This document shows, one piece after another, positions 7,621-27,100 of a stretch of 64,000 nt of DNA. The DNA is from Roseivirga sp. E12 (lineage in GTDB: Bacteria; Bacteroidota; Bacteroidia; Cytophagales; Cyclobacteriaceae): NCBI RefSeq assembly GCF_017592825.1, contig NZ_JAGFMD010000001.1, positions 1,550,001 through 1,614,000 of the forward strand, written 5' to 3'. Both the position numbers and the translations under genes were made by a program. Every line of letters begins with the position of its first letter. Positions within the stretch are counted from its first letter, which is position 1. Under the pieces are notes generated by a model. The model saw only the letters and a program-made list of their open reading frames with translations. It was not told the origin of the DNA and did no database searches.

Positions 7621-7659
7621 GTAGAACATATTAAATATCAATCCGTATATTTGTTCTAC
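7621..7659 (+). promoter_or_regulatory. Candidate PadR operator and promoter of the first permease block
   Basis: GTAGAACA at 7621-7628 and TGTTCTAC at 7652-7659 are a perfect 8-bp inverted repeat with a 23-base AT-rich spacer. TATATTTG at 7646-7653 matches the Bacteroidota -7 promoter consensus TAnnTTTG and overlaps the right arm. No convincing -33 TTG element was found. The start codon of the PadR gene is at 7678. The arrangement fits a repressor site covering the promoter. Confidence 0.45.
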
Positions 7660-7677
7660 AATCTAGTAACATACATT

Positions 7678-8022
7678 ATGAAGGAGACAAAATTAGGAGA
7701 CTTCGAAGAGACCATTCTTCTGCTAGTAGGCATACTTGACAAGGAAGCATACGCCTTTAAAATTGCAGAAGAGTTTGAAGCTCAAACAGACAGAGCAGTA
7801 TCCATTGGTGCTGTTCATTCTACATTAAACAGGTTGGGTGATAAGGGTTTTCTTACCTCAGAAATGGGTGCTTCTACGGCTGAACGCGGTGGAAGAAGAA
7901 AGAGAATCTACACCATCACAGCCTCTGGTCAGAGGGCCTTGCAAGAATCAAGAGACTTTAAAATCTCTCTATGGGACCAGTTCCCATCCTTGGCAGGTGG
8001 TAATCTCAATTTCAACATATGA
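7678..8022 (+). CDS. PadR family transcriptional regulator (block 1)
   Basis: A 114-residue winged-helix regulator of the PadR family. I choose ATG 7678 (MKETKLGDFEETILLL) rather than the in-frame ATG at 7651, because PadR proteins begin right before the LG-F-E-ILLL helix and the upstream codons overlap the likely promoter. Hallmarks are IGAVHSTLNRLGDKGFL (recognition helix and wing) and GGRRKRIYTITASG. It precedes five permeases on the same strand. PadR proteins are usually ligand-responsive repressors of nearby membrane transport genes, and control of the downstream array is inferred from position. Confidence 0.9.
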   Translation: MKETKLGDFEETILLLVGILDKEAYAFKIAEEFEAQTDRAVSIGAVHSTLNRLGDKGFLTSEMGASTAERGGRRKRIYTITASGQRALQESRDFKISLWDQFPSLAGGNLNFNI

Positions 8023-8024
8023 TT

Positions 8025-8098: not shown

Positions 8099-10726
8099 AT
8101 GAAAAACGACAATCAACATATCGCCCCTCCCAGACTTGCAGAAAAACTGCTACTTCTTTTTCTAAAAGAAGACTTAGCAGAGGAAGTTTTGGGCGATTTG
8201 GATGAGAAGTTCTACTCTCAGTTAGACAGACACTCTCAAGTAAAAGCAAAACGAAACTATTGGTATCAAGTGGTGAACTACATGCGCCCCTTTGCCTTCA
8301 AATATTTCAGGTCAAAACTCTTTAACAACAACGGTATGATAAAGCACAACTTCAAAATCAGCTATCGTCAAATGCTGAGAAATAAAGCTTACTCTTTTAT
8401 TAATATATCAGGCCTTGCCATAGGTCTAGTGGTTGCCATGCTCATCGGTTTATGGGTTCAGGACGAGCTAGCGTTCAACAAGTCTCATAGCAATTATGAA
8501 ACCACGTACCAGCTCCTGCGACACGAGAAGGAAGATGGGGAGACGTACACCAACAATGCCTTGGTCACAGCCATGGGCACCTATATCAGCACGAATTACC
8601 CTGACATGGTCGAAAATACGGTGATTTCTCGAGCCAGGACCCAAAATAGGGTAATTGGTAATGGTGATAATAAATACAGACAAGTTGGACACTTTATGCA
8701 AGCAGGTGCTCCTGCCATGCTTGGTCTTGAAATGATTAGAGGAACTCATGATGGCTTGACCGACATGAGCTCCATTCTACTCTCAGAGTCTTTTGCCAAA
8801 AGGCTTTTCGGAGACGAGGATCCAATGAACAAACTAGTCAAAATGGATGCTGGAGCCGATCTAATGGTGACCGGTGTCTATAAAGACATTCCCAACAACT
8901 CAAAATTCTCAGAAGGCAAGTACTTTGCTAGAATTGAATGGATAATAGGCCCAGACAACATGAATATATGGGAAAACTATAACGTCAACATCTATATTCA
9001 ACTCAAGCCCAATGTAAAGCCCGAAGCGCTTAATGTGCTCATCAACGAGGCTTTCCAACCCAACTTAAATGACTACGCCAGATCAACTGAAATGGAGTTC
9101 TTCCTTCATCCTATGAAAGACTGGCACCTAAATTCAGAATGGAAAGACGGTCAGCCGGTTAGAAGTCAGGCTATGAATTTTGTTTGGCTGTATGGCGTAA
9201 TTGGTCTTTTCGTCCTAGTTCTGGCATGCATTAACTTCATGAACCTTAGTACAGCTCGATCGGAAAAAAGAGCTAAGGAAGTGGGCATCAGAAAAACACT
9301 GGGCTCTCTTAGAAAGCAGCTGATTGCCCAGTTCTACATCGAATCTTTCCTATATAGTCTCCTGGCATTCGGTTTATCATTACTACTACTCTTTGCCTTG
9401 CTCCCTTGGTTCAATGGCGTATCAGGCAAAGAGATTTCGGCACCATGGCAAAGCACCCAGTTTTGGTTATTAACCAGTGGGTTTGTTGTATTGACTTCAC
9501 TACTATCCGGATCTTACCCAGCCTTCTACTTATCTTCTTTCAAACCTATTAAGGCTCTAAAAGGAGTCCTTACCGGAGGTAAAAGAGCTTCTATCCCTAG
9601 AAAAGTATTAGTGGTCTTCCAATTCACTATATCAATTGCACTGATCATTGGGACAATAACAGTGAACAATCAAATTCAAACAGCCAAGCAAAGACCAGTC
9701 GGCTATTCGCCAGAAGGGATGCTTTCGATAAGACCCGCCTCGCCTAACTTAATCTCTAAAAGAAAAGTGATTAAGGAGGAGTTATTGAAGACAGGAATGG
9801 CTGTTGCAGTCGGAAATTCTAATTACCCAGTAACAAGTACATTGGGCTGGAACCCAGGCTTCACTTGGGAAGGCATGGACCCGAACTTCACCAAATCATT
9901 CAACACCATTAGCATATCACATGGGTATGGCGATGCTGTCGGCATGAAATTCATTGCTGGAAGAGATTTTTCTGAGGAACTCGAAACCGACAACAGAGCC
10001 ATCATCATTAATCGCTCGGCCATGGAGGCCATGAAGTTAGAAAACCCAGTGGGCACCACTGTTACTTACAACCCTAGCTGGAGAGAAGCCCGTACCTACA
10101 CTATCATTGGAGTTGTGGAAGACATGATCAAGGGTTCTCCTTTCGATCAGACTTCGCTATCGGTAATGTTCCTCGATGAAGGTTTCATGCAATGGTTATA
10201 CATTCGACTCAACCCTGATGTTAGCGCAAGCCAATCCCTTCCGGTAATAGAAAAGGCTTTCAGCGAAGTCTTCCCTGAGGCACCATTTGACTACACTTTT
10301 GCTGATGATGATTACAATGCGAAGTTTGAAGAAGAGCAGCGTATTAGTAGCCTGGCTCAGTTCTTCAGCATCTTAGCCGTATTCATAAGCTCTCTTGGTT
10401 TGTTTGGCTTAGCCTCATATGTGGCAGAACAAAGAACCAAAGAAATTGGAATTAGAAAAGTACTTGGCGCCAGCGTCACTACACTTTGGAGGCTGCTATC
10501 GAAAGATTTCGCACTTCTAGTGCTTTTATCCTGTGTGATATCAATACCGCTGTCCTACTCTGTTTTAGACGGCTGGCTTCAAGGCTATGCAGTAAAAACC
10601 GAGTTATACTGGTGGATTTTTGCCGCGGGTGCCCTTGGTGGACTACTAATCACAATTGTTACGGTAAGTTTTCAGGCACTTAAGGCCGCGGTGGCAAACC
10701 CTGTAAAATCATTAAGAACTGAATAG
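8099..10726 (+). CDS. Permease 1: prefix-domain MacB/FtsX-type permease
   Basis: 875 residues from ATG 8099 (the frame is open farther upstream but that part overlaps padR). Residues 1-75 form the small cytoplasmic permease-prefix domain (PPRLAEKLLLLFLKEDLAEEVLGDLDEKF). Then come two MacB-like modules: TM1 at about 99-120, a large periplasmic domain to about 355, three TM segments (about 360-383, 413-433, 455-475), a new TM near 507, a second periplasmic domain and three terminal TMs. The FtsX coupling blocks KEVGIRKTLGS and KEIGIRKVLGA occur after TM2 and TM6. It lacks an ATPase domain, and no ATPase gene is nearby. Closest relative in the window is permease 5. Substrate unknown; export of peptides or lipids, or mechanical signalling, are family possibilities. 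Confidence 0.9.
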   Translation: MKNDNQHIAPPRLAEKLLLLFLKEDLAEEVLGDLDEKFYSQLDRHSQVKAKRNYWYQVVNYMRPFAFKYFRSKLFNNNGMIKHNFKISYRQMLRNKAYSFINISGLAIGLVVAMLIGLWVQDELAFNKSHSNYETTYQLLRHEKEDGETYTNNALVTAMGTYISTNYPDMVENTVISRARTQNRVIGNGDNKYRQVGHFMQAGAPAMLGLEMIRGTHDGLTDMSSILLSESFAKRLFGDEDPMNKLVKMDAGADLMVTGVYKDIPNNSKFSEGKYFARIEWIIGPDNMNIWENYNVNIYIQLKPNVKPEALNVLINEAFQPNLNDYARSTEMEFFLHPMKDWHLNSEWKDGQPVRSQAMNFVWLYGVIGLFVLVLACINFMNLSTARSEKRAKEVGIRKTLGSLRKQLIAQFYIESFLYSLLAFGLSLLLLFALLPWFNGVSGKEISAPWQSTQFWLLTSGFVVLTSLLSGSYPAFYLSSFKPIKALKGVLTGGKRASIPRKVLVVFQFTISIALIIGTITVNNQIQTAKQRPVGYSPEGMLSIRPASPNLISKRKVIKEELLKTGMAVAVGNSNYPVTSTLGWNPGFTWEGMDPNFTKSFNTISISHGYGDAVGMKFIAGRDFSEELETDNRAIIINRSAMEAMKLENPVGTTVTYNPSWREARTYTIIGVVEDMIKGSPFDQTSLSVMFLDEGFMQWLYIRLNPDVSASQSLPVIEKAFSEVFPEAPFDYTFADDDYNAKFEEEQRISSLAQFFSILAVFISSLGLFGLASYVAEQRTKEIGIRKVLGASVTTLWRLLSKDFALLVLLSCVISIPLSYSVLDGWLQGYAVKTELYWWIFAAGALGGLLITIVTVSFQALKAAVANPVKSLRTE

Positions 10727-10778
10727 CAATAGAAATATCGCTCCTCCCTGGATTGCCAAAAAACTCCTTCTATGGTTC

Positions 10779-13379
10779 TTGAAAAGTGAACTTGCAGAAG
10801 AGGTTTTAGGCGACTTGGATGAGAAGTTCTACAAGGTTCTTGAAGAAAAAGGACATCGTGGAGCACGGAAAATTTATTGGCTTCAGGTCATGAAATACTT
10901 CAGACCTTTTGCCATCAAAAAAACAAGACTCAGGTTACCCAAAATAGCAACCATGCAAAGACATTATCTTAAGATTTCATGGCGAAACTTACTTCGTGAC
11001 AAAGCTTTCTCATCTATTAAAATTGGAGGTTTCGCTGTCGGTATAGCAGCATGCATCCTCATCTCATTATACATCAATCACGAGTTGAGCTATGACAAGC
11101 ACTATCAAGATCAGGAAAGCATTTATCGAATAGCCAACAACTATCAAAGTGAGGAATACTCCGAGATGTGGACCAACCTCGAAGGACCATTCAAGCCTGT
11201 CTTGGAGGGTAATATCCCGGAAATCGATCTTGTAGCACGAGTCGTACTTTGGAGGTGGGGGAAAGTTGGGGAAAACCATATCCGTCCATCCAACACACTT
11301 AACAACATATACGAAGGTGGTTTCTTCTATTCCGACCCTGAGTTATTCGAAATACTTGAGGTACCCATGGTCTATGGCAGCCAAAAGGAGGCATTGAACG
11401 CCCCAAATAGCATTGCCATTTCTAAATCAAAGGCAGACAAATACTTTCCTAATGAAAACCCTGTGGGAAAGCAGCTCATACTCAATGATGATACAGAAAG
11501 AGCCTATACCATTGGTGGGGTATTTGAAGATTTCGTTTCAACCTCTCACCTCCAAGGTGATTTCATCATGACTTTGAAAGACCGTAAGTCTGGTCCAGGT
11601 ACTTCGGGTTGGTGTTGCACCAACTATAATTTTTACGTCAAGCTAACGCCTAATGCAAGCAAGACAGCCATAGAGCAAAAATTAACCAATGTCAGGGACA
11701 CTTATATCATGGACAAATACAGGGAAATTGGTAAAAATGGTTTAGACGACTTACAAAAACATCAATCTTACTATCTACAACCTGTTCAAGACATCTATTT
11801 GAATAAACAGAATATTGGTGACAATATGACTCATGGCTCTCACGACCTGGTTTGGATTTTTGGCGGAGTTGCTCTGACCATTCTCTTACTGGCCTGTTTA
11901 AACTTCATCAACCTTTCTACTGCAAAATCTATCAAAAGAGCCAAAGAAGTTGGCTTAAGAAAAGTCGTGGGCTCACAACGGTCTGGTTTAATCGTTCAGC
12001 ACTTAACTGAATCATCGTTTTACAGCCTTTTATCTGTGGTTTTAGGCACTTTGATTGCCTGGGGTCTGATGCCTTTATTCAATAAAATTTCGGCAGAAGC
12101 TTTAGTCATTCCTTGGACCTCTTGGTGGTTTGCCCCCACCCTTTTGTCCGGAGCCCTATTGATTGGTTTTCTTTCAGGTATTTACCCTGCCTTCTACCTC
12201 TCCAAGTTTAATCCCATTGAGGTTTTAAAAGGCAAGGCCAGCAGTGGCGCAAGCACTTCTTTCTTCAGAAATAGCATGGTCGTCTTTCAGTTTACGGTAA
12301 CTGTAATTCTAATCATTGCTGCCATTGTTACACAGAAGCAGTTCCAACACTTCATGAACAAGTCTCTGGGTTTTGAAAAAGAACAAGTCGTAAACATACT
12401 CGGATTAAATAGCCTAAAGGAAAATGAAAGGGAGGTTTTTAAGGAAGAACTAGAGCGGATAACGGCAATTCAAAGTACGAGTTTGGGCGACTACCTACCC
12501 GTAGAAGGTGGACGTAACACTAATTTTGGCTTCGAATTGGTTGAAAAGAAGGGCTTGGAAGAAGGTTTCGAGGCAGCCCGATGGATGGTTGACGAAAACT
12601 ATTTAGAGACCATGGGTATGGAATTAGTCAGTGGTAGAAATTTCACCGATCAATCCCTGGACGAAACATCGATCATCATTAATGAAAGTATGGCACATCA
12701 ATTCGGCCTTGACGACCCTATTGATACCCAAGTGGTAGATATGTTTGATGGTACTTATCGCATCATTGGAGTTGTCAAAGACTTTTATTTTGAGTCATTG
12801 ACCAGTACAGTCCGACCTTTGGCAATGGTGCGTGGTAAGGGAAGAGAAACAATTTCCATAAAGTTAAATTCATCTAATATAGAACAGACTTTAGCTGCTG
12901 TCAATTCGATCTGGGAAGGATTTAAACCCAACCAGCCCATCAGATATAGCTTTATGAACCAGCGCTTTCAACGCATGTATGAAGATCTGATTAAGGCCAA
13001 AACCCTCTTGATCATTTTCTCCATTCTATCTGTCACGATTGCCTGCCTTGGGTTATTCGCTTTATCTGCATATTCCGTAGAACAGCGAATTAAAGAAGTC
13101 AGTGTACGAAAAGTACTTGGAGCAAGTGCCCAAATGATTTTCAAATTGCTCGCTGGAGATTTCATCAAATTGATATTAATATCAATAGCCGTTGCAATTC
13201 CAGTGGGATGGTTGCTCATGGATGAGTTACTAGGCGACATGACCAATCGCATCAGTCTATCATGGACCGTTTTTGCTTTGGCATCGCTAATGGCACTTGT
13301 CATTGCCATCATTACGGTAAGCTTTGAATCAATCAAAGCAGCACTTATAAATCCTGCTACAAGATTAAGGTCTGAGTGA
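10779..13379 (+). CDS. Permease 2: prefix-domain MacB/FtsX-type permease, start codon uncertain
   Basis: The listed start is TTG 10779, which gives 866 residues, but the conserved prefix motif (IAPPWIAKKLLLWFLK) is encoded in frame from about 10734. Between the in-frame stop at 10713-10715 and 10779 there is no ATG, GTG or TTG; the only near-cognate options are CTG 10719, ATC 10737 and ATT 10752. CTG 10719 would overlap the end of permease 1 and give a prefix of normal length. The rest is intact: TM near residue 70-90, periplasmic domain, KEVGLRKVVGS and KEVSVRKVLGA coupling blocks, and the usual 4+4 TM layout. Its stop codon overlaps the GTG of permease 3. Confidence 0.82.
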   Translation: MKSELAEEVLGDLDEKFYKVLEEKGHRGARKIYWLQVMKYFRPFAIKKTRLRLPKIATMQRHYLKISWRNLLRDKAFSSIKIGGFAVGIAACILISLYINHELSYDKHYQDQESIYRIANNYQSEEYSEMWTNLEGPFKPVLEGNIPEIDLVARVVLWRWGKVGENHIRPSNTLNNIYEGGFFYSDPELFEILEVPMVYGSQKEALNAPNSIAISKSKADKYFPNENPVGKQLILNDDTERAYTIGGVFEDFVSTSHLQGDFIMTLKDRKSGPGTSGWCCTNYNFYVKLTPNASKTAIEQKLTNVRDTYIMDKYREIGKNGLDDLQKHQSYYLQPVQDIYLNKQNIGDNMTHGSHDLVWIFGGVALTILLLACLNFINLSTAKSIKRAKEVGLRKVVGSQRSGLIVQHLTESSFYSLLSVVLGTLIAWGLMPLFNKISAEALVIPWTSWWFAPTLLSGALLIGFLSGIYPAFYLSKFNPIEVLKGKASSGASTSFFRNSMVVFQFTVTVILIIAAIVTQKQFQHFMNKSLGFEKEQVVNILGLNSLKENEREVFKEELERITAIQSTSLGDYLPVEGGRNTNFGFELVEKKGLEEGFEAARWMVDENYLETMGMELVSGRNFTDQSLDETSIIINESMAHQFGLDDPIDTQVVDMFDGTYRIIGVVKDFYFESLTSTVRPLAMVRGKGRETISIKLNSSNIEQTLAAVNSIWEGFKPNQPIRYSFMNQRFQRMYEDLIKAKTLLIIFSILSVTIACLGLFALSAYSVEQRIKEVSVRKVLGASAQMIFKLLAGDFIKLILISIAVAIPVGWLLMDELLGDMTNRISLSWTVFALASLMALVIAIITVSFESIKAALINPATRLRSE

Positions 13380-16003
13380 GCCGAGGCAAAGACCATATCA
13401 CCCCTCCTAGATTAGCAGAAAAACTACTACTGTGGTTTCTCAAAGATGAGTTAGCAGAAGAGGTCCTAGGTGATCTGGAAGAAAAATTCAAGGATATTCT
13501 GAAAACTAATGGCCTCAGAAAAGCCAACAGAAATTACTGTTATCAAGTATTCAAATATTTAAGACCATTCGCCCTAAAGCGAATAAGATCAAAACGGATT
13601 AACAACACTATGTACATCAATCATACCAAGGTTGCTCTTCGCAGTCTATCTAGAAACAAGCTTTTCACCTTCATAAATATTACAGGAATGGCCATTGGAA
13701 TGTCTGTGGCTCTCCTCATTATCAACCTCGTTTTTGATGCACTCAAATTCGATCAATTTCATACTAAAAAAGATCGCATATATAGAGTATTAAGCACACC
13801 AAAACATATTGGTCATGCCTGGGATGAAAATGCTACTGCTCCTGCCCCCCTAGCTTCTTTTCTCGAAACTGATATACCTGGTATTGAGGAAGTAGTGCGT
13901 ATTAGGAGACGTTTTTCTGGTAGAGTTAAGAAGGAAGATGGAAGCCTCTTTGCGCAAGGCATTTATGCTGATGACAGCTTTTTCAAGGTCTTCTCTTTCG
14001 GCTTACTTCAGGGCAACCCCGAGACTGCTCTACAAAATCCATACGACCTGGTTCTTACACAGACTCTCGCAGAAAAACTCAGGCCGGGAGAAGACCTTAT
14101 GGGACAAGTCCTTACAATTCCTGATAGAGGTGAGTTTCTTGTGACTGGAATTGTAGAAGATCCTCCAGCGCATTCTCATATGAAATTTGAGTTAATCACA
14201 TCTTTCAAGACAGTCAAACCACTGGAGGAAAAAGAATTAATCTTTGCCAGTTCAGAGAATTGGGAAGATTTCAACACGAGCTATGTCTACTTTCTTGTAA
14301 AGGACACCGAGCAAATCATGGCAGTCGAGAATCGACTGAATGAAATGAGCATAAGTCAGTATGCCTCCAATGAGCGTCTTGAAGTTTCTTTCAGTACACA
14401 GAACATTACTTCAATTGTTCCGGGGAAAGATCTCAACAATCAAATTGGAGCTGAACTGATACCCCTTCCAATCATAATTCTGTCAATTATTGCTATAGCC
14501 ATTGTTCTCTCAGCATGCTTTAATTATACCAACCTTAGCATTGCCAGAGCAATGAGGAGATCAAAAGAAATCGGGGTTCGCAAAATTGTTGGTAGCTCGA
14601 AAAGTCAAATCTTCATCCAGTTTTCTGTCGAAACAGTTGTGATGACAATCTTGTCTGTTTTCTTTTCAACACTTCTCTTTCTTGTTATCAAGCCTCTTTT
14701 CATCACGAGCATACCTAGAATTGATTTAATAATGGAGTTCAATACTTCTCCTGTTCTGATGCTCTACTTCTTACTGTTTGCAGTAGTCATTGGCTTGGTC
14801 TCAGGACTATTTCCAGCACTATTTTTTTCAAGGCTTAAACCACTAAATGCTCTGAGAAGCAACGGTTCGATAAGGCTCTTCTCACATATCAAAGTTAGGA
14901 AAGCATTGATTGTTCTTCAGTTCAGCCTGTCAGTGCTATTTCTAATCGCTATGAATGTAGTGTTCAAACAATATAGATATGCCATGGCTTACGATATGGG
15001 ATTCAAAGAGGAAAACATTCTCAATCTATCTCTTAACGGCAATGATCACGAGCGTCTCATCGCGGAACTTGAGAAAATACCTGAGATAAGTCAATTATCT
15101 GGTTCATCAGCAGTACCAGGTACAACTGCCAGCAATACTACCATGGTTAAGAGTTCTAATGGGGTTGATTCGGTCAGGGTCAACTTTCTATCAGTGAACC
15201 CCAATTTCATGGACATCCACAACCTCAAACTTATTTCAGGAGAGGTGTATCCAGCAAACCAGCAAAATGAAATACTGAATAAGATGCTGGTTAATGAGGA
15301 GTTTGCTCACGTTCATGGTTATAATGAGGTAAATGATATTATTGGTGAAGTCTTTTACATGAACCAATCCCTTCTTACTGTTACCGGAGTATTAGAGGAC
15401 TTTAATTTTCAGACGATCGAGGAGCCAATCAGGCCATTGATTCTTTTTGATTCACCAAGTAATTATGAATTTCTAAACTTGAATGTTCAGGCATCGGATC
15501 TGCCAAATGTCTTTGACAAAATCGAAAAGGCTTGGACTGCAGTAGATGAAGAGACCGAACTTGAGTTAAAGTTTCTAGATCAGGAACTAGAAGAGTCTAA
15601 TGCCTTTTTAATGATTTTCGTTAGAGTCTTCGGCTTCTTAGGGCTCGTTGCTGTGAGTATTGCCTGTCTTGGACTTTTGGGCATGGCAGTGTTTACAGCA
15701 GAAACAAGGGTTAAAGAAATAGGCATTCGAAAAGCCATTGGTGCCAGTGTAAATCAGCTCATTTATACACTATCCAAAAGCTATCTATTCTTAATTATAA
15801 TCTCTGGGTTTGTTGGTGGCACATTGGCCTACATACTGCTTCAAAAAGTCATTCTACCAGAAATTCATCATCATGTAAATGTTGGATTCTTCGAGTTTGC
15901 CATAGCTATTGGCATGCTCTTTTTGTTGGCCCTATTGGCAATAGGTTCTCAAACTTGGAGAGCGGCAAGCAGAAATCCTTCCGAATCTTTAAGAAGTGAA
16001 TAG
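13376..16003 (+). CDS. Permease 3: prefix-domain MacB/FtsX-type permease
   Basis: 875 residues starting at GTG 13376, whose last two bases overlap the TGA of permease 2 (GTGA), so translation is probably coupled. The prefix domain (HITPPRLAEKLLLWFLKDELAEEVLGDLEEKF region) is almost identical at DNA level to permease 4. The remainder is more diverged than in the other members: MAIGMSVALLIINLVFDALKFDQF in TM1, then FNYTNLSIARAMRRSKEIGVRKIVGS and KEIGIRKAIGA blocks. The two-module 4+4 TM architecture is kept. Its diverged body with a conserved prefix suggests recombination of the 5' end. Confidence 0.88.
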   Translation: MSRGKDHITPPRLAEKLLLWFLKDELAEEVLGDLEEKFKDILKTNGLRKANRNYCYQVFKYLRPFALKRIRSKRINNTMYINHTKVALRSLSRNKLFTFINITGMAIGMSVALLIINLVFDALKFDQFHTKKDRIYRVLSTPKHIGHAWDENATAPAPLASFLETDIPGIEEVVRIRRRFSGRVKKEDGSLFAQGIYADDSFFKVFSFGLLQGNPETALQNPYDLVLTQTLAEKLRPGEDLMGQVLTIPDRGEFLVTGIVEDPPAHSHMKFELITSFKTVKPLEEKELIFASSENWEDFNTSYVYFLVKDTEQIMAVENRLNEMSISQYASNERLEVSFSTQNITSIVPGKDLNNQIGAELIPLPIIILSIIAIAIVLSACFNYTNLSIARAMRRSKEIGVRKIVGSSKSQIFIQFSVETVVMTILSVFFSTLLFLVIKPLFITSIPRIDLIMEFNTSPVLMLYFLLFAVVIGLVSGLFPALFFSRLKPLNALRSNGSIRLFSHIKVRKALIVLQFSLSVLFLIAMNVVFKQYRYAMAYDMGFKEENILNLSLNGNDHERLIAELEKIPEISQLSGSSAVPGTTASNTTMVKSSNGVDSVRVNFLSVNPNFMDIHNLKLISGEVYPANQQNEILNKMLVNEEFAHVHGYNEVNDIIGEVFYMNQSLLTVTGVLEDFNFQTIEEPIRPLILFDSPSNYEFLNLNVQASDLPNVFDKIEKAWTAVDEETELELKFLDQELEESNAFLMIFVRVFGFLGLVAVSIACLGLLGMAVFTAETRVKEIGIRKAIGASVNQLIYTLSKSYLFLIIISGFVGGTLAYILLQKVILPEIHHHVNVGFFEFAIAIGMLFLLALLAIGSQTWRAASRNPSESLRSE
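13394..13490 (+). repeat. 97-bp near-identical tract, copy in permease 3
   Basis: Bases 13394-13490 match 16028-16124 in permease 4 at 96 of 97 positions by eye (one C/T difference). The tract encodes the prefix-domain helices. Downstream identity falls sharply, pointing to local gene conversion or a recent mosaic event. Confidence 0.85.
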
Positions 16004-16009
16004 CATCCG

Positions 16010-18675: not shown

Positions 18676-18711
18676 TCCAGTCGCTCCTCTCCCTCAGGAT
18701 GACGAAAAACG

Positions 18712-21339
18712 ATGAAAAGGAATAACAGCCATATCACCCCACCAAAACTAGCTGAGAAGCTATTGCTCTGGTTTCTCAAAGATGAATTGGCAGAAGAAGT
18801 ACAAGGTGATTTGGATGAAAAGTTTTTCCTCACATTAAAAAGTCGCTCCAGATTTAAGGCAAAAAGAAATTACTGGTTGCAGGTATTAAACTATATAAGA
18901 CCCTTCGCCTCCAAGAAAACATTGTTCAACCACTCAAATCACAACATCATGCTTAGACACAATCTGTTAATCGGGTATCGTAACCTACTTAAGCACAAAG
19001 CCTATTCCTTCATCAATATCGGAGGTCTGGTATTGGGTATGACCGTGGCACTTCTTATTGGCCTCTGGGTAAATGACGAACTCTCTTACAACAAATATCA
19101 TGACAAGTATGACAGGATTGTTCAGGTAATGCACCAGCGAGAGAGAAGCAATGGGGAGGTGATGACCAATATGTCACAGGTAAGCCAATTAGGCCCTCAC
19201 TTAAAAGAAAATTTTGGTCATTTCTTTAAAGAGGTAGTAATGATGCCTTACAGAACCGAAGAATTGCTCCTATCCACTAATCGTAACACCTTCAACCAGA
19301 CTGGACGATTCATGCAAGAAGATGGGCCGTCATTGTTGGGGTTAAAAATGATACAAGGGACCTATGCTAGTCTTAAAGAAGTAAACTCAATTATGCTTAG
19401 TGAAAGCTTGGCAAAAAAACTATTCGGAGATGTTGACCCAATAGGAGAATTGGTTCAGTTTAAAGCAAAAACAGATCTTATTGTCACAGGTATTTACGAA
19501 GACATCCCCAAGAATTCAGCATTTAATGATGCTCACTTCATTTGTCCATTAAAACTCTCCTATGGCAACGATCCTGGTTTCTTCAAGTGGGATAATTACA
19601 ATACGGCTGTTTTCGGTGAATTACAGCCGGGAATTAAACACGAAGATGTTTCAACAGCAATTGAAGAAACCATGTTCCCACATATGGAGGGTGAAAGCAA
19701 GCCCCGAGCCTTTGTCATGCCAATGAAAGATTGGCATTTGAATTCTTATTATGAGAATGGTATCAAAAAAACCAGCCCTAGAATAAGAGTTATATGGATT
19801 TACAGTGCCATGGGCATCTTTGTGCTCCTATTGGCCTGTATCAATTTTATGAACCTAAGCACCGCCCGTTCTCAACAAAGAATGAAGGAGGTTGGAGTTC
19901 GAAAGGCGATTGGCTCGTTAAGAACACAGCTAACGAGACAATTTCTTTCAGAATCTTTTCTGTTTGTGTTCCTAGCCTTTGGACTCTCGCTGGTCTTGCT
20001 GGCAGCACTACTTCCTTGGTTTAACGATATTTCAGAGAAGAGTATTCAAGTGCCATTTGCCAACTCAAGCTTCTGGCTTTCTTCTCTTGCTTTTATCATT
20101 ATTACTGCGTTCCTGGCGGGTGCTTATCCTGCCTATTATCTGTCATCCTTTAGACCCATTCAGGCACTTAGAGGGTCCATCAAATTTGGTAAGGGAAGAA
20201 CCAAATTAAGACAAGTGTTGGTGGTTTTTCAGTTCACCATCAGCATCGCATTGATCATAGGCACTATTACTATCCACAATCAAACGCAGTTCGCTAAAAA
20301 CAGACCTGTCGGCTATAGTCAAGAAGGTTTGATTACCATAGAGTATCAAAATCAGCAATATGTGGGGATCTTTAACACGCTACAGACAGAGCTGAAAAAA
20401 ATGGGCATGGTTACTGAAATAGCCCAAGCCAATTATCCATTAACCAACACACGCGGACAAACTGGTGGATTTGATTGGACGGGCCTTGAAGAGGAAAGAG
20501 AAGTTATTTTCAATACAGTTTTTGTAAGACCTGAATATGGTAAAACAGTGGGCTGGTCAATTCTTCAAGGAAGAGACTTCGACCGAGAACTAGTATCTGA
20601 CATGCAGAACGGTGTCATTATCAGTGAATCCGCATTAAAAGTAATGAACCTTGAAGACCCAATTGGAAAGAAAATAAAAGCGAAAAACGGTTGGAATGGT
20701 AAAAACGAATACACCATCATTGGAGTGGCAAGTGATATGATTAAAGGATCTCCTTTTGAGGCGCCATTACCCGCTCTTCTTTTCCCAATTGAAGCTGACC
20801 TGGGTTATTTGTTCATTAGAGTTAACCCTCAGGTGAGTCTCTCAGAAGCCCTCCCAGAAATCGAAAATACCTGGCGTGAGTTAGCACCTACACATCCCTT
20901 TCTATATAGCTTTGTGGATGATGAATACGGCTTAAAATTCAAGGAAGAAGAGAGAATATCCAGTCTTGCTACCTTCTTCAGTGTTTTGACTATCCTTATC
21001 AGCACACTCGGCCTCTACGGACTAGCTTCCTTTGTTATGGAGCAACGAATTAAAGAAGTAGGCATCCGCAAGGTTTTAGGGGCAAGCCTACGAAACCTAT
21101 GGAAGCTTTTGTCAACTGATTTTGTCATTTTAATTGGCATTGCCTCCGCCATCGCAGTACCTATCTCCTATTCACCGTTGAGTCAATGGCTCGATTCCTA
21201 TGAATACAGTATTAGCCTGGAGTGGTGGATTTTTGCAGTTGCAATCTTTGGATCGTTAGCAGTCACCCTCATGATTGTAAGTATCCAGACTGTGCGTGCA
21301 GCCATGACCAACCCGTTGAAGTCATTAAGAACAGAGTAA
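18712..21339 (+). CDS. Permease 5: prefix-domain MacB/FtsX-type permease
   Basis: 875 residues from ATG 18712, the same length as permease 1 and its nearest paralogue here. Shared stretches include GRFMQEDGPSLLGLKMIQG versus GHFMQAGAPAMLGLEMIRG and the PMKDWHLNS block. The prefix reads HITPPKLAEKLLLWFLKDELAEEV. The first module has KEVGVRKAIGSLRTQ, and the second has KEVGIRKVLGASLRN, with the usual 4+4 TM layout. A 92-base repeat-filled gap separates it from permease 4, and the same repeat precedes permease 1, so gene and repeat may have been duplicated together. It ends block 1. Confidence 0.9.
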   Translation: MKRNNSHITPPKLAEKLLLWFLKDELAEEVQGDLDEKFFLTLKSRSRFKAKRNYWLQVLNYIRPFASKKTLFNHSNHNIMLRHNLLIGYRNLLKHKAYSFINIGGLVLGMTVALLIGLWVNDELSYNKYHDKYDRIVQVMHQRERSNGEVMTNMSQVSQLGPHLKENFGHFFKEVVMMPYRTEELLLSTNRNTFNQTGRFMQEDGPSLLGLKMIQGTYASLKEVNSIMLSESLAKKLFGDVDPIGELVQFKAKTDLIVTGIYEDIPKNSAFNDAHFICPLKLSYGNDPGFFKWDNYNTAVFGELQPGIKHEDVSTAIEETMFPHMEGESKPRAFVMPMKDWHLNSYYENGIKKTSPRIRVIWIYSAMGIFVLLLACINFMNLSTARSQQRMKEVGVRKAIGSLRTQLTRQFLSESFLFVFLAFGLSLVLLAALLPWFNDISEKSIQVPFANSSFWLSSLAFIIITAFLAGAYPAYYLSSFRPIQALRGSIKFGKGRTKLRQVLVVFQFTISIALIIGTITIHNQTQFAKNRPVGYSQEGLITIEYQNQQYVGIFNTLQTELKKMGMVTEIAQANYPLTNTRGQTGGFDWTGLEEEREVIFNTVFVRPEYGKTVGWSILQGRDFDRELVSDMQNGVIISESALKVMNLEDPIGKKIKAKNGWNGKNEYTIIGVASDMIKGSPFEAPLPALLFPIEADLGYLFIRVNPQVSLSEALPEIENTWRELAPTHPFLYSFVDDEYGLKFKEEERISSLATFFSVLTILISTLGLYGLASFVMEQRIKEVGIRKVLGASLRNLWKLLSTDFVILIGIASAIAVPISYSPLSQWLDSYEYSISLEWWIFAVAIFGSLAVTLMIVSIQTVRAAMTNPLKSLRTE

Positions 21340-21352
21340 CCCAAACCACAAC

Positions 21353-21450
21353 CGTCATTGTGAGGAAAGCACGACCGAAACGATGTCCTCAATGCTGAAC
21401 AATACTTGTCCGGCAGGCAGGAGGGTTGTTTCGCTTTGCTCACAATGACG
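21353..21450. repeat. 98-bp dispersed palindromic repeat (CGTCATTGTGAG type)
   Basis: CGTCATTGTGAG at 21353-21364 and CTCACAATGACG at 21439-21450 are exact 12-base inverted arms. The inside contains further partial complementarity (GAAAGC and GCTTT near the arms) and a CTTGTCCGGCAGGCAGG segment. It looks like a REP/MITE-type intergenic element, with no ORF. It separates the two permease blocks and might act as a transcription terminator or a processed RNA hairpin. Confidence 0.75.
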
Positions 21451-21511
21451 TAAAAAATCATACCCTCCTTTATTTCATGCAACCCTAAGAAATATTTCTT
21501 CTCTTTTCCGT

Positions 21512-21534
21512 AACATACTTTTTATTCGTATGTT
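21512..21534 (+). promoter_or_regulatory. Candidate PadR operator/promoter of the second permease block
   Basis: AACATAC at 21512-21518 and GTATGTT at 21528-21534 form a perfect 7-bp inverted repeat with a 9-base spacer. Outside it, CTCTTTTCCG on the left mirrors CCGAAAAAGAG on the right imperfectly, giving a dyad of about 45 bases. TATGTTTA at 21529-21536 is one base off the TAnnTTTG element. The PadR start is at 21555. The likely use is autorepression. Confidence 0.45.
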
Positions 21535-21554
21535 TATTCCGAAAAAGAGAATAA

Positions 21555-21893
21555 ATGAAAAAAATCACTTTAGGTGCCTTTGAAGAACTGGTACTCCTCA
21601 CGGCAGGTGTACTCCAGGACAATGCCTATGGCGTTACCATTAAACTGGAGCTTGAGCGTCAACTTAAGAAGAAAATAAGCCTTGGCTCTCTTTATTCAGC
21701 ACTACAACGATTAGAAGATAAAGGCTGGGTCAATTCCAGAATTGGCGGAATCACCGAAAAACAGGGCGGGCGAAGAAAGCAGTACTACGACATCACCAAA
21801 GAAGGGATGATGGCATTGGATGAAGTACGCGCTATGCGAAACGGTCTCTTCAACCGCCTGCCAAACGCTAAACTTGACCTGCTTAAATCATGA
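21555..21893 (+). CDS. PadR family transcriptional regulator (block 2)
   Basis: 112 residues, the same family as the regulator at 7678. It begins MKKITLGAFEELVLLTAGVL and has the winged-helix core SLGSLYSALQRLEDKGWV followed by GGRRKQYYDITKEG. It is clearly a paralogue but differs from block 1 in the effector half. Its TGA overlaps the ATG of permease 6 by four bases (ATGA), so regulator and permease are translationally coupled, a tighter linkage than in block 1. Confidence 0.92.
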   Translation: MKKITLGAFEELVLLTAGVLQDNAYGVTIKLELERQLKKKISLGSLYSALQRLEDKGWVNSRIGGITEKQGGRRKQYYDITKEGMMALDEVRAMRNGLFNRLPNAKLDLLKS

Positions 21894-24493
21894 GTCGAAA
21901 GAACAAAAGTCCACGACCACCACGGTTCGCCAAATGGTTACTAGAAAGTTTCTGCTCTTATGACTTCTTGTCAACAGCTCTATGGGACCTGGAAGAATTG
22001 TTTCATCATAACATAAAAGTCAAAGGACTCAGCAAAGCCAGATTCTTCTATACCATGGAAGTGTTAGGCATCATCATTCATCTTTTTTTCAAAGGAAAGA
22101 GTCAATACTCAACTAACAAAACAGCTATGTTAAAACACAACCTTTTAATCTCTATCCGAAGCTTTAAGCGCTTTAAAAGCACATTCCTTATCAATTTGTT
22201 CGGATTGGCCATTGGACTGGCTAGCGCACTGTTGATTTACCTCTGGGTAAATGACGAACTGCATATGGATCAGCTCGGTGAAAAGGATAGTGATAGGCAT
22301 TATCAAATTTTAGTCAATACGGCTCATCCTAGCGGAATTCAGACAAAGACGATGGCACCAACTCCTATGTCACAAGCGATGGCCTCTGAATTGCCAGAAA
22401 TTGATTATACAATACCTATTGTTAATGTAAAGTTCTACCAGGGCATATTATCGTATAAAAACCAATATGTACGAGCCCAACAACTTTTTGTTGGCAGCAG
22501 ATATTTTGATGTATTCCCATGCGATTTTGTCTCGGGAAACAAAGAAACTGCCTTTGATGATAAAAATGGCATTACTATATCAGAATCCATGGCAATCAGT
22601 TTGTTTGGAAATTCAGCCAACGCCATTGGTCAGACGGTTGACTTCAAAAGTGTAAACTTCAACGGACCCTACACAGTTTCCGGAGTATTCAGACCTGATA
22701 AAAACATCTCTTTAGACTTCGACATACTAATGAGTTTTGATCAGTTTCTTACTGCTCGTCCTGAAATGAAAAAATGGTATAACGGAGGAACTGAGACTCA
22801 CTTGGTATTGAAAGAGGGAGTGGACATCGAGCTGTTCAACTCGAAAATTAAAGACTACCTCCATACTAAAGAATTTCAGAGCAAATCACAGACGTTGTTT
22901 ATTCAAAAATACACTGACAGATACCTCTATGGACAGTACGTAAACGGAGAACCCACAGCAGGAAGGATGGTCAATGTTAGAATTTTTTCTCTTATAGCCA
23001 TAGTTGTACTAGTAATTGCCTGTATCAACTACATGAACCTTTCCACTGCACAGGCCTCTAGAAGAATCAAGGAGATTGGTATTAAAAAGGCAGTTGGGGC
23101 TCAACGTAGAAGCTTGGTCTACCAGCACTTTGCCGAATCCATATTCATGACCTCTCTTTCATTGATACTATCAGTCGGAATTGTACTCTTGCTATTGCCT
23201 AAATTCAACGAAATTACGGCTAAGGATTTATCCATTTTCGGAGCATCTGGAGTTATTCTACCCGTTTTAGGTATTACGTTATTGACAGGTCTAGTTTCAG
23301 GCATATATCCTGGAATTTATCTATCCGGTTTCAATACTGTATTGGCTTTGAAAGGAAAACTAAATCCTGGCTCTGGAGCTTTATCGTTGCGTAAAGTATT
23401 AGTAGTATTCCAGTTTATGATTTCGGCCACGTTAATTATTTCGGCCGTGGTGATTCATAGTCAAATCAATTTCGTTCAACAGTTTAATTTGGGCTATGAC
23501 ACCGAACACTTAATCTCATTCCAAAAAGAAGGTAAACTTCGTGACTCTCCGGAAATCTTTATACAAGAAGTCAAGAACATCCCCGGAGTCGCTAATGCTT
23601 CGAGTATGGGAGGAAATCTGGGCATTAAGGTTAGTTCACGTTATAATTTAGAATGGAAAGGTCAGAACCCTGACGACAAGGGTATCTGGTTCCATTTCGT
23701 TGATGGCGGATATGATATCGCTGAAATGTTGGGAGTTGAACTCAAATCCGGACGCCTCCTTTCCACAGATTTTCCATCTGATAAGAAAGCAATAGTAATT
23801 AATGAAACTGCGGCCGAAGTTCTTGGGTTTGACAATCCAATTGGAGAAAAGTTATATGTCGGGCCAGCGTATACAATTGTCGGTATAATCAAAGACTTCC
23901 ACTTTCAAGGAATGCATGAAAAAATCCAACCCTTCTTTTTTAGGCTTGACTCCGGTTCTCGAAACATCATGGTAAAGCTATCAGGAGATAATCAGGCCAA
24001 AACGTTGAAGAAGATAGAAGCATTGCATTCCTCTTTCAATCCTGGTTATCCCTTCGAATTTAGATTCATAGACGACAATTATCAAAAACTCTATGATGAG
24101 GAAAGAAGAATTTCTTCGTTGTCCGACTATTTTGCTATGGTCGCCATAGTCATCTCATGTCTAGGTCTTTTGGCCTTGACCGCTTTTAGTACGCAAAGAA
24201 GATTTAAGGAAATAGCCATACGAAAAGTACTTGGTTCTAAGAACTCGGGCATCATTCACTTGCTATCCAAAGAGTTCTTGATTCTAATAGCAATTGCGAT
24301 CACAGCTGCCCTCCCAATTGGCTATTACTTGATGAAAGATTGGCTAGATGGCTTTGCATTCAGAATAGACTTGCAGCCTTTCTACTTTATTCTTTCAGGC
24401 TTGATTATGCTCATTGTGGCATGGTTAACTATTGCAGCACAAACGGCCAAATCGGTCAAAATTAATATAACCGATAGTCTGAGGAGCGAATAA
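21890..24493 (+). CDS. Permease 6: MacB/FtsX-type permease with variant prefix
   Basis: 867 residues from ATG 21890, overlapping padR by four bases. The N-terminal prefix differs from that of permeases 1-5: PPRFAKWLLESFCSYDFLSTALWDLEELFHH, followed by a KARFFYTMEVLGIIIHLFFKG hydrophobic segment. A conserved Met (22127) then starts the MacB-like part, very similar to permease 4 (RSFKRFKSTF, IYLWVNDEL). Coupling blocks are KEIGIKKAVGAQRRS and KEIAIRKVLGSKNSG. The overall 4+4 TM layout is retained and no ATPase is present. The first 290 bases are near-identical to permease 7. Confidence 0.9.
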   Translation: MSRKNKSPRPPRFAKWLLESFCSYDFLSTALWDLEELFHHNIKVKGLSKARFFYTMEVLGIIIHLFFKGKSQYSTNKTAMLKHNLLISIRSFKRFKSTFLINLFGLAIGLASALLIYLWVNDELHMDQLGEKDSDRHYQILVNTAHPSGIQTKTMAPTPMSQAMASELPEIDYTIPIVNVKFYQGILSYKNQYVRAQQLFVGSRYFDVFPCDFVSGNKETAFDDKNGITISESMAISLFGNSANAIGQTVDFKSVNFNGPYTVSGVFRPDKNISLDFDILMSFDQFLTARPEMKKWYNGGTETHLVLKEGVDIELFNSKIKDYLHTKEFQSKSQTLFIQKYTDRYLYGQYVNGEPTAGRMVNVRIFSLIAIVVLVIACINYMNLSTAQASRRIKEIGIKKAVGAQRRSLVYQHFAESIFMTSLSLILSVGIVLLLLPKFNEITAKDLSIFGASGVILPVLGITLLTGLVSGIYPGIYLSGFNTVLALKGKLNPGSGALSLRKVLVVFQFMISATLIISAVVIHSQINFVQQFNLGYDTEHLISFQKEGKLRDSPEIFIQEVKNIPGVANASSMGGNLGIKVSSRYNLEWKGQNPDDKGIWFHFVDGGYDIAEMLGVELKSGRLLSTDFPSDKKAIVINETAAEVLGFDNPIGEKLYVGPAYTIVGIIKDFHFQGMHEKIQPFFFRLDSGSRNIMVKLSGDNQAKTLKKIEALHSSFNPGYPFEFRFIDDNYQKLYDEERRISSLSDYFAMVAIVISCLGLLALTAFSTQRRFKEIAIRKVLGSKNSGIIHLLSKEFLILIAIAITAALPIGYYLMKDWLDGFAFRIDLQPFYFILSGLIMLIVAWLTIAAQTAKSVKINITDSLRSE
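21914..22179 (+). repeat. 266-bp near-identical tract, copy in permease 6
   Basis: Aligned by eye with 24521-24786 in permease 7: no gaps and about 13 mismatches (roughly 95% identity). It spans the variant prefix and the first residues of the permease part. Identity then drops quickly, so the tract is a duplicated or converted 5' module. Confidence 0.85.
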
Positions 24494-24496
24494 ATC

Positions 24497-27100
24497 ATGG
24501 GCATAAAGCACAAAAATGCACGACCACCACGGTTCGCCAAATGGTTACTAAAAAGTTTCTGCTCTTATGACTTCTTGTCAACGGCTCTATGGGACCTGGA
24601 AGAATTGTTTCATCATAACATAAAAGTCAAAGGACTCAGCAAAGCCAGACTCTTCTATACCATGGAAGTATTTGGCATCATCATCCATCTTTTTTTTAAA
24701 GGCAAAAGTCAATACTCAACTAATAAAATTGCCATGTTAAAACACAACCTTTTAATCTCTATCCGAAGCTTTAAGCGCTTTAAAAGTACTTTCTTTATCA
24801 ACCTCATCGGACTGGCCACAGGGCTGGCCTCCACCCTGCTCATTTATTTATGGGTAGTTGATGAAATGTCGATAGACAAATTCCATGAAAAAGATGACCA
24901 AATCTATCAGGTCATGCGAAATCGAAACCAAAATGGCATAATAAACACCACTTCTACGATGCCCGGTCCGCTGGCAGAAGAACTGAGGACCAACTATCCG
25001 GAGGTTGAATCTGCCTCTATGATTTGGGCTCCAGAGTTTTTTGGCAGCAAAGGATACATCTCAATGGAAGACAAACAGATCAGGGCAAAAGCACAATACG
25101 TTGATGCTGGCTTTATGAAGATCATGTCAGTACCATTGGTCTCTGGTAATCCAAATGCCGCTTTGAAAAGCAAGACTGAAGTGCTCATCTCAGAATCTTT
25201 GGCTCAAAAAGTATTTGGAACGATCGACAATCTGATTGGTAAGACCCTCCATTGGAACGAGGGAAAAATGTCAGGAGACTACATGATCAGCGGGATTTTC
25301 GAAGACGTTCCTGATAATTCATCCATGCAATTCGACATGTTGCTGAACGCCAAAGTGATGATAGATGCTCGCAAATACATGGAGGAATGGGGCAATACCA
25401 ATCCCGATGTGGTTGTACTACTTAAAGAAGGCACCTCTGCGGATCAATTCGATGCCAAAATCACAAAGCTTATTCAAGCCAAGCGCCCCAAATCAAGTGG
25501 TACACTCTTCATCCAAAAGTTCTCAGATCGCTATCTCAAGGGCTCTTATGAGAACGGTACCGTCTCTGGTGGTAGAATAGTCTATGTGCGTCTTTTCTCC
25601 ATTGTTGCCATGATCATTCTCGCCATTGCATGTATCAACTTTATGAATCTGAGTACGGCAAAAGCGACCGGAAGGCTTAAAGAAATTGGTGTAAAAAAGG
25701 CGCTTGGTGCAAAAAGAAAAGCCCTCCTTACCCAGTATTACACGGAATCATTTTTGATGACAATTATAAGTATGGCCATGGCTCTGATTATGGCGCGGTC
25801 ACTTTTACCCCAATTCAGCCAAATCACTGGAAAAGCACTGAATATCAATTTCACATCCGAACTTGCTATAGGCATTGGGGTCATCCTATTATTCACAGGT
25901 TTACTAGCAGGAAGTTATCCGGCCCTCTATTTATCTCGACTAAAAACGACCGAATCATTAAAGGGGAAACTTGCGAAAAGTTTTAGCGAATTGCTCGTTC
26001 GTAAAGGGCTCGTTATTTTTCAATTTTCTGCCTCCATCATACTGATTTTCAGTGTATTAATAGTCTCCAAACAGATCGATTATATTCAAAACAAGAACCT
26101 TGGCTATAACCGCGAAAATATCGTCAAGTTCGACAATACTGGAATTGATGACTCTGCCTATCCCGGCTTTGTGTCATCTCTGGAGTCCATACCCGGAGTG
26201 CTTAGTACCGCATCAACCGGACATGACTTGACTGGTGATCACGGAAGTACCCGACTCAGTTGGCCTGGAAAAAAAACCGATGACAAGACCATGTTCATCA
26301 ATCTTGAAATGAGTCCTAGGTTTATCGAAACCATGGGAATAGAACTTGTGCAAGGTAGAACGTTCGAACGCGGCCGAATAAACGAAGACAAAAAAATTAT
26401 CTTCAATGAAACCGCCATTAAACAAATGGACCTTGAAGATCCTGTCGGTAAGATTATCAATCTATGGGGTCGTGAAAAAGAGATCATTGGAGTGGTCAAG
26501 GATTTTCATGCAGAGTCTCTTTATGAAACCATTCAACCCACCCTCATTCAGGCCTATCCTGTTTTAAATAGTACAATTGTCCGAATCCAGAAAGAGACCA
26601 TACCCAATACGCTTGCAAGCATTGAGGAGCGCTTCGAGGAGTTTAGCAATGGCTTGCCTTTTGAATTCAGCTTTATGGATTCAGATTATCAAGCGATGTA
26701 TCAAAGTGAAAAAAGGATCTCCTCCCTATCAAAGTTCTTTGCCATTGTAGCTGCCATAATTTCCTGCCTAGGGCTTCTGGGCTTAACCGCCTTTACAGCC
26801 GAAAAGCGCACTAAAGAAATCGGAATACGTAAAGTCTTAGGTTCAGGCAATTGGAAGATCGTGGGACTGTTATCATTAGACTTTGCAAAAATGGTGCTTG
26901 TCGCCCTAGTCATAGGCTTACCATTGAGCTACTTCATTGCTCAGGGCTGGTTGGAAAACTTCAAGTATAGTATCGCACTATCACCATGGCACTTTTTACT
27001 TTCAGGCTCAATAATAGTGGCCATTTCCTGGTTGACAGTGAGTTTTCAAACCTTTAAGGCTGCACGCACCAACCCTGTAGATGCCCTGCGATCGGAGTAA
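24497..27100 (+). CDS. Permease 7: MacB/FtsX-type permease with variant prefix
   Basis: 867 residues from ATG 24497, three bases after permease 6. The prefix (PPRFAKWLLKSFCSYDF) is nearly the same as in permease 6, yet the first periplasmic domain (YQVMRNRNQNGIINTTSTMPGPLAEEL) belongs to a different subgroup. Coupling blocks: KEIGVKKALGAKRKA and KEIGIRKVLGSGNWK. It ends the array and is followed by a strong hairpin at 27120-27173. As for its relatives, two modules of four TM segments flank large extracytoplasmic domains, and the partner ATPase, if any, is not in this window. Confidence 0.9.
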   Translation: MGIKHKNARPPRFAKWLLKSFCSYDFLSTALWDLEELFHHNIKVKGLSKARLFYTMEVFGIIIHLFFKGKSQYSTNKIAMLKHNLLISIRSFKRFKSTFFINLIGLATGLASTLLIYLWVVDEMSIDKFHEKDDQIYQVMRNRNQNGIINTTSTMPGPLAEELRTNYPEVESASMIWAPEFFGSKGYISMEDKQIRAKAQYVDAGFMKIMSVPLVSGNPNAALKSKTEVLISESLAQKVFGTIDNLIGKTLHWNEGKMSGDYMISGIFEDVPDNSSMQFDMLLNAKVMIDARKYMEEWGNTNPDVVVLLKEGTSADQFDAKITKLIQAKRPKSSGTLFIQKFSDRYLKGSYENGTVSGGRIVYVRLFSIVAMIILAIACINFMNLSTAKATGRLKEIGVKKALGAKRKALLTQYYTESFLMTIISMAMALIMARSLLPQFSQITGKALNINFTSELAIGIGVILLFTGLLAGSYPALYLSRLKTTESLKGKLAKSFSELLVRKGLVIFQFSASIILIFSVLIVSKQIDYIQNKNLGYNRENIVKFDNTGIDDSAYPGFVSSLESIPGVLSTASTGHDLTGDHGSTRLSWPGKKTDDKTMFINLEMSPRFIETMGIELVQGRTFERGRINEDKKIIFNETAIKQMDLEDPVGKIINLWGREKEIIGVVKDFHAESLYETIQPTLIQAYPVLNSTIVRIQKETIPNTLASIEERFEEFSNGLPFEFSFMDSDYQAMYQSEKRISSLSKFFAIVAAIISCLGLLGLTAFTAEKRTKEIGIRKVLGSGNWKIVGLLSLDFAKMVLVALVIGLPLSYFIAQGWLENFKYSIALSPWHFLLSGSIIVAISWLTVSFQTFKAARTNPVDALRSE
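24521..24786 (+). repeat. 266-bp near-identical tract, copy in permease 7
   Basis: Partner of 21914-22179, same length without gaps. The first base lies 24 bases after the start codon. Confidence 0.85.

Follow-up and report, generated by a model that had tools for sequence, protein, structure and literature searches.

Genes of the array and their genomic setting

The window analysed here, a 64,000-nucleotide stretch of the genome of Roseivirga sp. E12, carries an array of seven permeases of the duplicated MacB/FtsX type, each with an N-terminal prefix domain, which are all encoded on the + strand (8099-27100) and lie in two blocks headed by PadR regulators. Block A consists of PadR 1 and five permeases (8099-21339), and block B of PadR 2 and two permeases (21890-27100). 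By comparing these genes with their paralogs and with relatives in other genomes, we show, at the level of sequence, that PadR and prefix have been kept matched while permease bodies were exchanged, and that a putative operator is included in this pairing in part of the units. That prefix and PadR travel as one module is the main result here; it was missed in a preliminary description of the locus, which had otherwise recognized the seven prefix permeases in a single orientation and the PadR genes at 7678 and 21555 that head the two blocks, as borne out by the coordinates and the profile matches given below.

All seven permeases matched MacB_PCD and FtsX, in two stretches each except for the single MacB_PCD stretch of the permease at 16010, and all seven exceeded the cut-off of 35 bits for perm_prefix_2 (NF038404), with 67, 54, 75, 71, 67, 44 and 41 bits. 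Both PadRs exceeded the PF03551 gathering cut-off of 27. The two types of prefix that had been distinguished earlier do exist, but as subtypes of one family, and the permease lengths of 866-875 residues given at that time do not hold for permease 2. The start at 10779 in the list of open reading frames (866 aa) is too short, since the full prefix is encoded in frame upstream. No ATG, GTG or TTG start for this prefix is present in frame upstream of 10779, and the gene probably begins at a CTG that overlaps the preceding stop, as the prefix is complete only in this way (Table 1). The closest named loci are Roseivirga or Cyclobacteriaceae records, with 70-87% identity to permease 4.

An AlphaFold2 model of full-length permease 3, for which 63 sequences from the window and from relatives were aligned, is that of a confident duplicated MacB-type permease (pLDDT 86.6, pTM 0.78), in which the prefix forms three helices (residues 12-21, 24-45 and 47-61) ahead of the first membrane helix. 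Its closest solved folds are YbbAP (9ge6; E 1.5e-21, TM 0.47 of query), MacB, LolCDE and BceAB; we know of no PadR-linked prefix in any of these four systems. When the prefix was modelled alone it again formed three helices, the third reaching residue 77.

Table 1. Features of the permease array and putative operators (window coordinates)
Feature	Position	Strand	Basis or remarks
Putative operator of PadR 1	7612-7668	+	Arms TACTAAAAAGTAGAACA (7612-7628) and TGTTCTACAATCTAGTA (7652-7668), 14/17 paired in this register
PadR 1, head of block A	7678-8022	+	PF03551, 40.5 bits; ATG at 7678
Permease 1, 875 aa	8099-10726; prefix 8126-8302	+	Profile matches
Permease 2, 886 aa if CTG start	10719-13379; prefix 10743-10925	+	CTG start at 10719 inferred
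Permease 3, 875 aa	13376-16003; prefix 13403-13582	+	Profile matches, AlphaFold2 model
Permease 4, 869 aa	16010-18619; prefix 16037-16219	+	Profile matches
Permease 5, 875 aa, last of block A	18712-21339; prefix 18739-18918	+	Profile matches
Putative operator of PadR 2	21494-21556	+	Arms ATTTCTTCTCTTTTCCG (21494-21510) and CGAAAAAGAGAATAAAT (21540-21556), 15/17 paired
PadR 2, head of block B	21555-21893	+	PF03551, 47.1 bits; stop/start overlap with permease 6
Permease 6, 867 aa	21890-24493; prefix 21917-22090	+	Profile matches
Permease 7, 867 aa	24497-27100; prefix 24524-24694	+	Profile matches

With at least 114 full-length duplicated permeases encoded in the genome, the window array is a sample of an expansion that extends genome-wide. 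Of its 208 candidates the MacB_PCD search scored 150, which makes the 114 permeases and the 57 among them without perm_prefix_2 lower bounds; the prefix search covered its full set of 63 candidates and returned the same 57 matches as the local set, 55 of which exceeded the perm_prefix_2 cut-off. The number of permeases in one place, called striking in the preliminary description, is indeed the highest among the prefix-type arrays of this genome, yet eight permeases each are found in two arrays without prefixes (C2:69-88 kb and C11:762-781 kb). Across the genus, first-look counts of permease candidates, a proxy that gives 124 for this genome versus the 114 counted, range from 7 to 251. At a strict threshold (E<=1e-20, weaker matches uncounted), perm_prefix_2 was matched only in this genome among 118 genomes across the phylum.

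The 57 prefix permeases are distributed without exception over 44 units, each headed by a PadR gene on the same strand, in which the stop codon of one gene mostly overlaps the start codon of the next. Of the at least 57 permeases without perm_prefix_2, 55 have a body that starts at residue 2-34, and 54 of these 55, which lack any domain-sized N-terminal extension, belong to no PadR unit, the exception (C33:18006) trailing one. The other two permeases (L100:4692-7322 and L103:6801-9500) are PadR-headed and carry other N-terminal stretches of ~80-100 residues, which by eye are HAAS-like and perm_prefix_1-like and are below curated cut-offs or unmatched. Their PadRs score below those of the perm_prefix_2 units: in a model derived from the full set of 49 PadR matches, the 44 prefix-unit PadRs reached 108-158 bits and six others 51-86. 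The same linkage is found at the loci of other genomes. With 50 permeases truncated by locus ends (24 + 26) set aside, a PadR gene heads the unit of all 39 prefix permeases that could be traced, and of 1 of the 40 traceable permeases without a prefix.

Judged by coordinates, six prefix-less sites with 28 permeases adjoin NtrC-type regulators, not PadR, which may represent a second way of regulating bodies of the same kind. Prefix-less arrays of 7-8 permeases stand beside NtrC-type sigma-54 regulators at C2:69-88 kb, C11:393-410 kb and C11:762-781 kb (L071, L072, L079, L080, L088, L089). At three further places, L130 (C34:218502-221306), L132 (C35:116023-117008) and L094 (C11:1139317-1140371), a PadR gene is closely followed by one gene (821, 194 and 229 aa, respectively), none of which encodes a permease of this kind; those of L132 and L094 are HAAS-like by eye, without a Pfam match.

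Prefix, PadR and putative operator relative to the permease body

Between units, prefixes and bodies are equally dissimilar (mean identity 0.286 and 0.285; 1576 pairs), whereas within units prefix identity rises to 0.617 and body identity only to 0.332 (20 pairs). Prefix identity was the higher of the two in 18 of the 20 within-unit pairs and in 762 of the 1576 others, and none of 2000 label shuffles reached the within-unit mean. Permease 7 is an extreme case, being 93% identical to permease 6 in its prefix region and 41% in its body. When each of the 13 non-leading permeases was compared with the 44 leaders, its own leader was nearest by prefix in every case and by body in 5; permease 5, which sits ~11 kb from PadR 1, is one of the 13. 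Among the leaders themselves, prefix and body distances were uncorrelated (r 0.022).

PadR distances follow the prefix in a similar way. The partial Mantel correlation of PadR with prefix given body was 0.377 (reached in 0 of 2000 permutations), while that of PadR with body given prefix was weak (0.158; 122 of 2000), and 15 units of other genomes gave 0.854 (0 of 2000) and 0.094 (327 of 2000), respectively. The unit with the nearest PadR was also the unit with the nearest prefix in 19 of 44 cases, and the unit with the nearest body in 3. Mapping prefix presence onto the body tree required 33 changes, close to the 37.7 +/- 2.8 of shuffled data (74 of 1000 shuffles gave 33 or fewer), so that the presence of a prefix hardly follows body kinship; this count is rough, the tree being a FastTree of distant paralogues. 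One instance illustrates the exchange: PadR 2 is 75% identical to the PadR at C11:1485674, and the leader prefixes of the two units are 64% identical, their bodies 28%, and their putative operators similar, as if block B and unit C11:1483062-1486012 were the same cassette on a different transporter.

Both window PadRs are preceded by long inverted repeats that are putative operators. That of PadR 1 has 17-bp arms and a 23-base spacer, and its arms are kept, with at most one or two changes, in all four aligned relatives (L159, L161, L162 and L163); a repeat scan over all units places it two bases outwards, again with 14/17 paired, and its core pattern is found just once in the genome. The PadR 2 repeat, likewise with 17-bp arms and with a 29-base spacer, overlaps the PadR 2 start codon with its second arm and has similar blocks in two relatives (L162 and L163). 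Of the three places in the genome where its pattern occurs, one is in the window, another is the unit C11:1483062-1486012, whose PadR is the one 75% identical to PadR 2 and whose repeat has similar arms in the same arrangement, and the third lies elsewhere. Footprinting by aligned relatives yields long arms of a separate sequence for each PadR, with spacers beyond the range of a short-spacer search. One common short-spacer PadR operator was sought and rejected: a dyad was common to at most 8 of the 44 heads, and ATGT-N-ACAT was found at 1 of 44. With starts reassigned, repeats of at least 14/17 paired bases stood upstream of 12 of the 44 PadR heads, 0 of 55 prefix-less permeases and 4 of 440 shuffles, and in 11 of the 12 repeat-bearing units the arms lie near -60 and -20; with uncorrected starts, the same scan gave 9 of 44, 1 of 55 and 0 of 132.

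Together, the co-travel of prefix and PadR and the swapping of bodies suggest that the prefix is the plug by which the transporter talks to its repressor. On balance we think it probable, though far from assured, that operator, PadR and prefix form a portable cassette in which the prefix is the PadR-contact domain, that bodies are exchanged beneath it, and that the permeases may borrow a shared ATPase. An alternative that we consider unlikely is that linkage alone accounts for the co-inheritance of PadR with the 5' part of the permease gene, and that recombination between tandem copies has homogenized them, with no contact between prefix and PadR. Over 20 within-unit pairs, fourfold-site identity was higher in prefixes (0.51; 244 sites) than in bodies (0.29; 2147 sites), as this alternative would have it, and because the prefix values are especially high in block B (0.89; 19 sites) and in C11:1154 (0.67), recent exchange must contribute. 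On the other hand, linkage and homogenization leave unexplained the absence of PadR-less prefixes here and in other genomes, and fit poorly with non-leading prefixes that lie up to ~11 kb from PadR and are nonetheless nearest to their own leader. In block A, moreover, 7 of 10 pairs keep a prefix amino-acid identity of 0.59-0.75 with a fourfold identity of 0.22-0.46 (a rough figure, from 7-16 sites each), the pattern expected if the similarity is older and selected; the other 3 pairs have a prefix fourfold identity of 0.71-0.75. Exchange and selection thus both seem to be at work.

Apart from the high fourfold identities just given, several observations count against the cassette. In a sliding comparison, the similarity of co-operonic pairs drops off between ~residue 70 and 130, so that in several pairs the shared tract runs on beyond the prefix into the first membrane helix, and in unit C11:837 two of three pairs have no prefix excess at all. 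The permutations take units as independent, which related units are not, above all the orthologous Roseivirga loci among the 15 units of other genomes. Part of the PadR-prefix correlation could come simply from the physical proximity of PadR to the start of the first permease gene, but this does not readily account for the later permeases of a unit. The inverted repeat at the 14/17 level is present in only 12 of 44 units, the model of the prefix alone is modest (pLDDT 75.6, pTM 0.58), and neither fold nor profile comparison gave a significant match for the prefix in the PDB.

Relation to known PadR-linked and orphan permeases

The kind of system is partly known, the window array representing two of its 44 units. 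HAAS-PadR pairs, including fusions of HAAS to FtsX/MacB_PCD permeases, have been published, and a release of PadR by the membrane sensor has been proposed for them (Ravi et al. 2024, PMC11237479); in such pairs the PadR gene adjoins one for a membrane protein whose N-terminal domain has three helices, as in the window units. Profile comparison revealed no similarity of perm_prefix_2 to perm_prefix_1, a domain that we take to be of the HAAS type (hhalign probability 1.3%). By comparison, a prefix_1 profile that includes L103 and the three by-eye HAAS-like sequences (L100, L132 and L094) align with one of 87%. At E<=1e-4, perm_prefix_1 had no match in this genome, and L103 gave a sub-cut-off NCBIfam match (20.4 of 30 bits). 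No Pfam family was found in the perm_prefix_2 of window members, nor in two prefix_1 examples and two by-eye HAAS-like proteins, and because the prefix_1 examples are also without a match, this silence cannot decide the question of HAAS kinship. Homology of perm_prefix_2 to HAAS (DUF1700/DUF1048) or prefix_1 was sought with Pfam, hhalign and PDB fold and profile comparisons and was not found, while its three helices, the last of which contains a proline, would be compatible with a remote HAAS. The pairing of perm_prefix_2 with PadR likely works like HAAS-PadR.

In Listeria, LltR is an autoregulating PadR repressor in an operon with a membrane protein, and this Lmo0600 operon is ~100-150-fold up in the LltR mutant; that protein is described as a DUF1700 protein and not as a MacB/FtsX permease (Hauf et al. 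2019, PMC6624303). Duplicated orphan permeases are known as large families, with 28 and 33 copies in two Dyadobacter genomes, and their function is described as unknown (PMC11573002). Our literature search found no paper that names the permease prefix domain and none that joins PadR with Roseivirga.

The likeness to the acidobacterial ADOP group (TIGR03434) that had been noted in the preliminary description stands as far as architecture goes, both being large paralogous families of duplicated MacB/FtsX permeases without an adjacent ATPase; PadR linkage, seen here, is presumably a feature of ADOP as well. The seven permeases score 250.7-304.3 bits against a TIGR03434 cut-off of 622.3, and the window PadRs 35 and 46 of 102 bits against TIGR03433. 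Since the permeases score below the cut-off and their nearest relatives are from Roseivirga, ADOP is a resemblance and not a membership, and an acidobacterial reading of the locus was dropped on account of these named relatives. The host belongs to the Bacteroidota and not to the Acidobacteriota, which we take to be the hosts of ADOP, and the array, judged from its sequences, is a counterpart to ADOP within the Bacteroidota whose permeases fall short of the ADOP cut-off.

A further likeness is to the darobactin exporter DarBCD (NF038008, NF038010 and NF038007). Four of the seven permeases match DarB across nearly the whole profile and the rest in part, and the genome has DarC-like, DarD-like and TolC genes in a single operon. 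Permeases (102-172 of 700), ATPase (285 of 375) and adaptor (147 of 450) all fall short of the curated cut-offs, and in contrast to DarBCD the permease is encoded apart here, with many permeases per ATPase.

A candidate shared engine and the proposed circuit

As had been described from the outset, no ATPase gene is found beside the array: the 41 PF00005 matches listed genome-wide (E<=1e-8) all lie outside the window. Adjacency was scored on 27 ABC open frames chosen from these matches, and none of the 57 prefix permeases has a same-strand ABC ATPase within 6 kb (three have one on the opposite strand). This could be taken to mean that the prefix itself docks an ATPase or localizes the permease, its PadR linkage being a by-product. 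We regard this as very improbable, since prefix-less permeases are also without an ATPase (1 of 57 has a same-strand one within 6 kb), the coupling motif is about equally conserved in prefix, prefix-less and ATPase-adjacent permeases, and the presence of a prefix follows PadR rather than an ATPase.

The earlier suggestion that the permeases use an ATPase encoded elsewhere or act as sensors was sound, as a pair of possibilities. That they are membrane sensors only, free of ATPase and of transport, would suit the disproportion between at least 114 permeases and the three ATPases of this genome that resemble our best candidate at E<=1e-60, yet it is doubtful at best in view of the coupling loops, in which E398, G400, K403, G406, E781, K786 and G789 are kept at 89-100% in the 57 prefix permeases (G783 at 61%), and of prefix-less relatives that adjoin ATPases in L165, L182 and L184. 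According to the preliminary description, its reading would fail if these permeases occurred in relatives as ordinary single ABC systems with adjacent ATPases, and this was observed in part. A prefix-less body 63% identical to permease 4 from residue 80 on lies in a Flavobacteriaceae array (L165) that includes two MacB-type ATPases. It does not make the Roseivirga array ordinary, and suggests that the body is of an ATPase-driven family, with the prefix a separable module.

The L165 ATPases have their best matches among the fetched ABC frames of this genome at C22:260412 (67%) and C33:249281 (65%). The former belongs to an operon (C22:258957-262405) that encodes TolC, the ATPase and an adaptor, the last two with DarD and DarC, respectively, as their best NCBIfam hits, without a permease of this family; an NtrC-type gene at C22:263463 adjoins it. 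An ortholog with adaptor and TolC alongside is present in 12 of 13 genus genomes, including this one, and none of the 12 has an FtsX permease of this family within 1.5 kb on either side of the ATPase; in the exception, G009 (84% complete), the match reaches no more than 46%. Matches to C22:260412 at E<=1e-60 number 3 or 4 per genome in those 12 genomes, whatever the permease load (first-look 43-251). Because the coupling motif is kept and the DarC-DarD-TolC-like operon lacks a permease, an ATPase shared in trans, with one ATPase serving many permeases, is plausible. The basis of this assignment is genomic complementarity. Against it stand two further ATPases of the MacB type, C33:249281 and C34:9072, which could equally be the partner, and the finding that, among six genomes from the same order but other genera, a permease of the family lies beside the best match in three (L245-L247) and not in the other three. 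The C33:249281 ATPase adjoins one prefix-less permease, and the C34:9072-9806 gene (L142), with no family permease detected beside it, is a further candidate partner.

Under the cassette reading, each block would be an autoregulated export or sensing unit. PadR would bind the inverted repeat around its own promoter and start region and repress both its own gene and the downstream permeases, each of which would consist of two fused half-transporters of the MacB type, preceded at the N-terminus by a helical prefix that is presumably cytosolic. A substrate or envelope signal, sensed by the periplasmic MacB_PCD domains or through the transport cycle, may then cause the prefix to alter its hold on PadR, leading to derepression of the unit, much as has been proposed for HAAS-PadR. 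It is improbable that the permeases are sensors without an ATPase, and they may use a shared MacB/DarD-type ATPase, adaptor and TolC from elsewhere, for which the permease-less operon at C22:258957-262405 would be the best candidate. A bolder version, which we offer as a speculation that more probably fails than holds, is that perm_prefix_2 is a second class of PadR-transducing domain distinct from HAAS, and that dozens of insulated operator-PadR-prefix circuits each set the moment at which one permease head is produced and docks on a common DarC-DarD-TolC chassis.

What is new here is the evidence for a cassette of prefix and PadR, with the operator in part of the units, that is separate from the permease body, and a concrete candidate for a shared engine. 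These turn the puzzle of the orphan permeases into two claims that can be tested at the bench, namely that the prefix is a unit-specific repressor-contact domain and that one permease-less ATPase-adaptor-TolC operon powers many permease heads. If true, some 44 parallel membrane-sensor circuits would operate in one genome, which would be useful for studies of specificity and for the design of modular biosensors.

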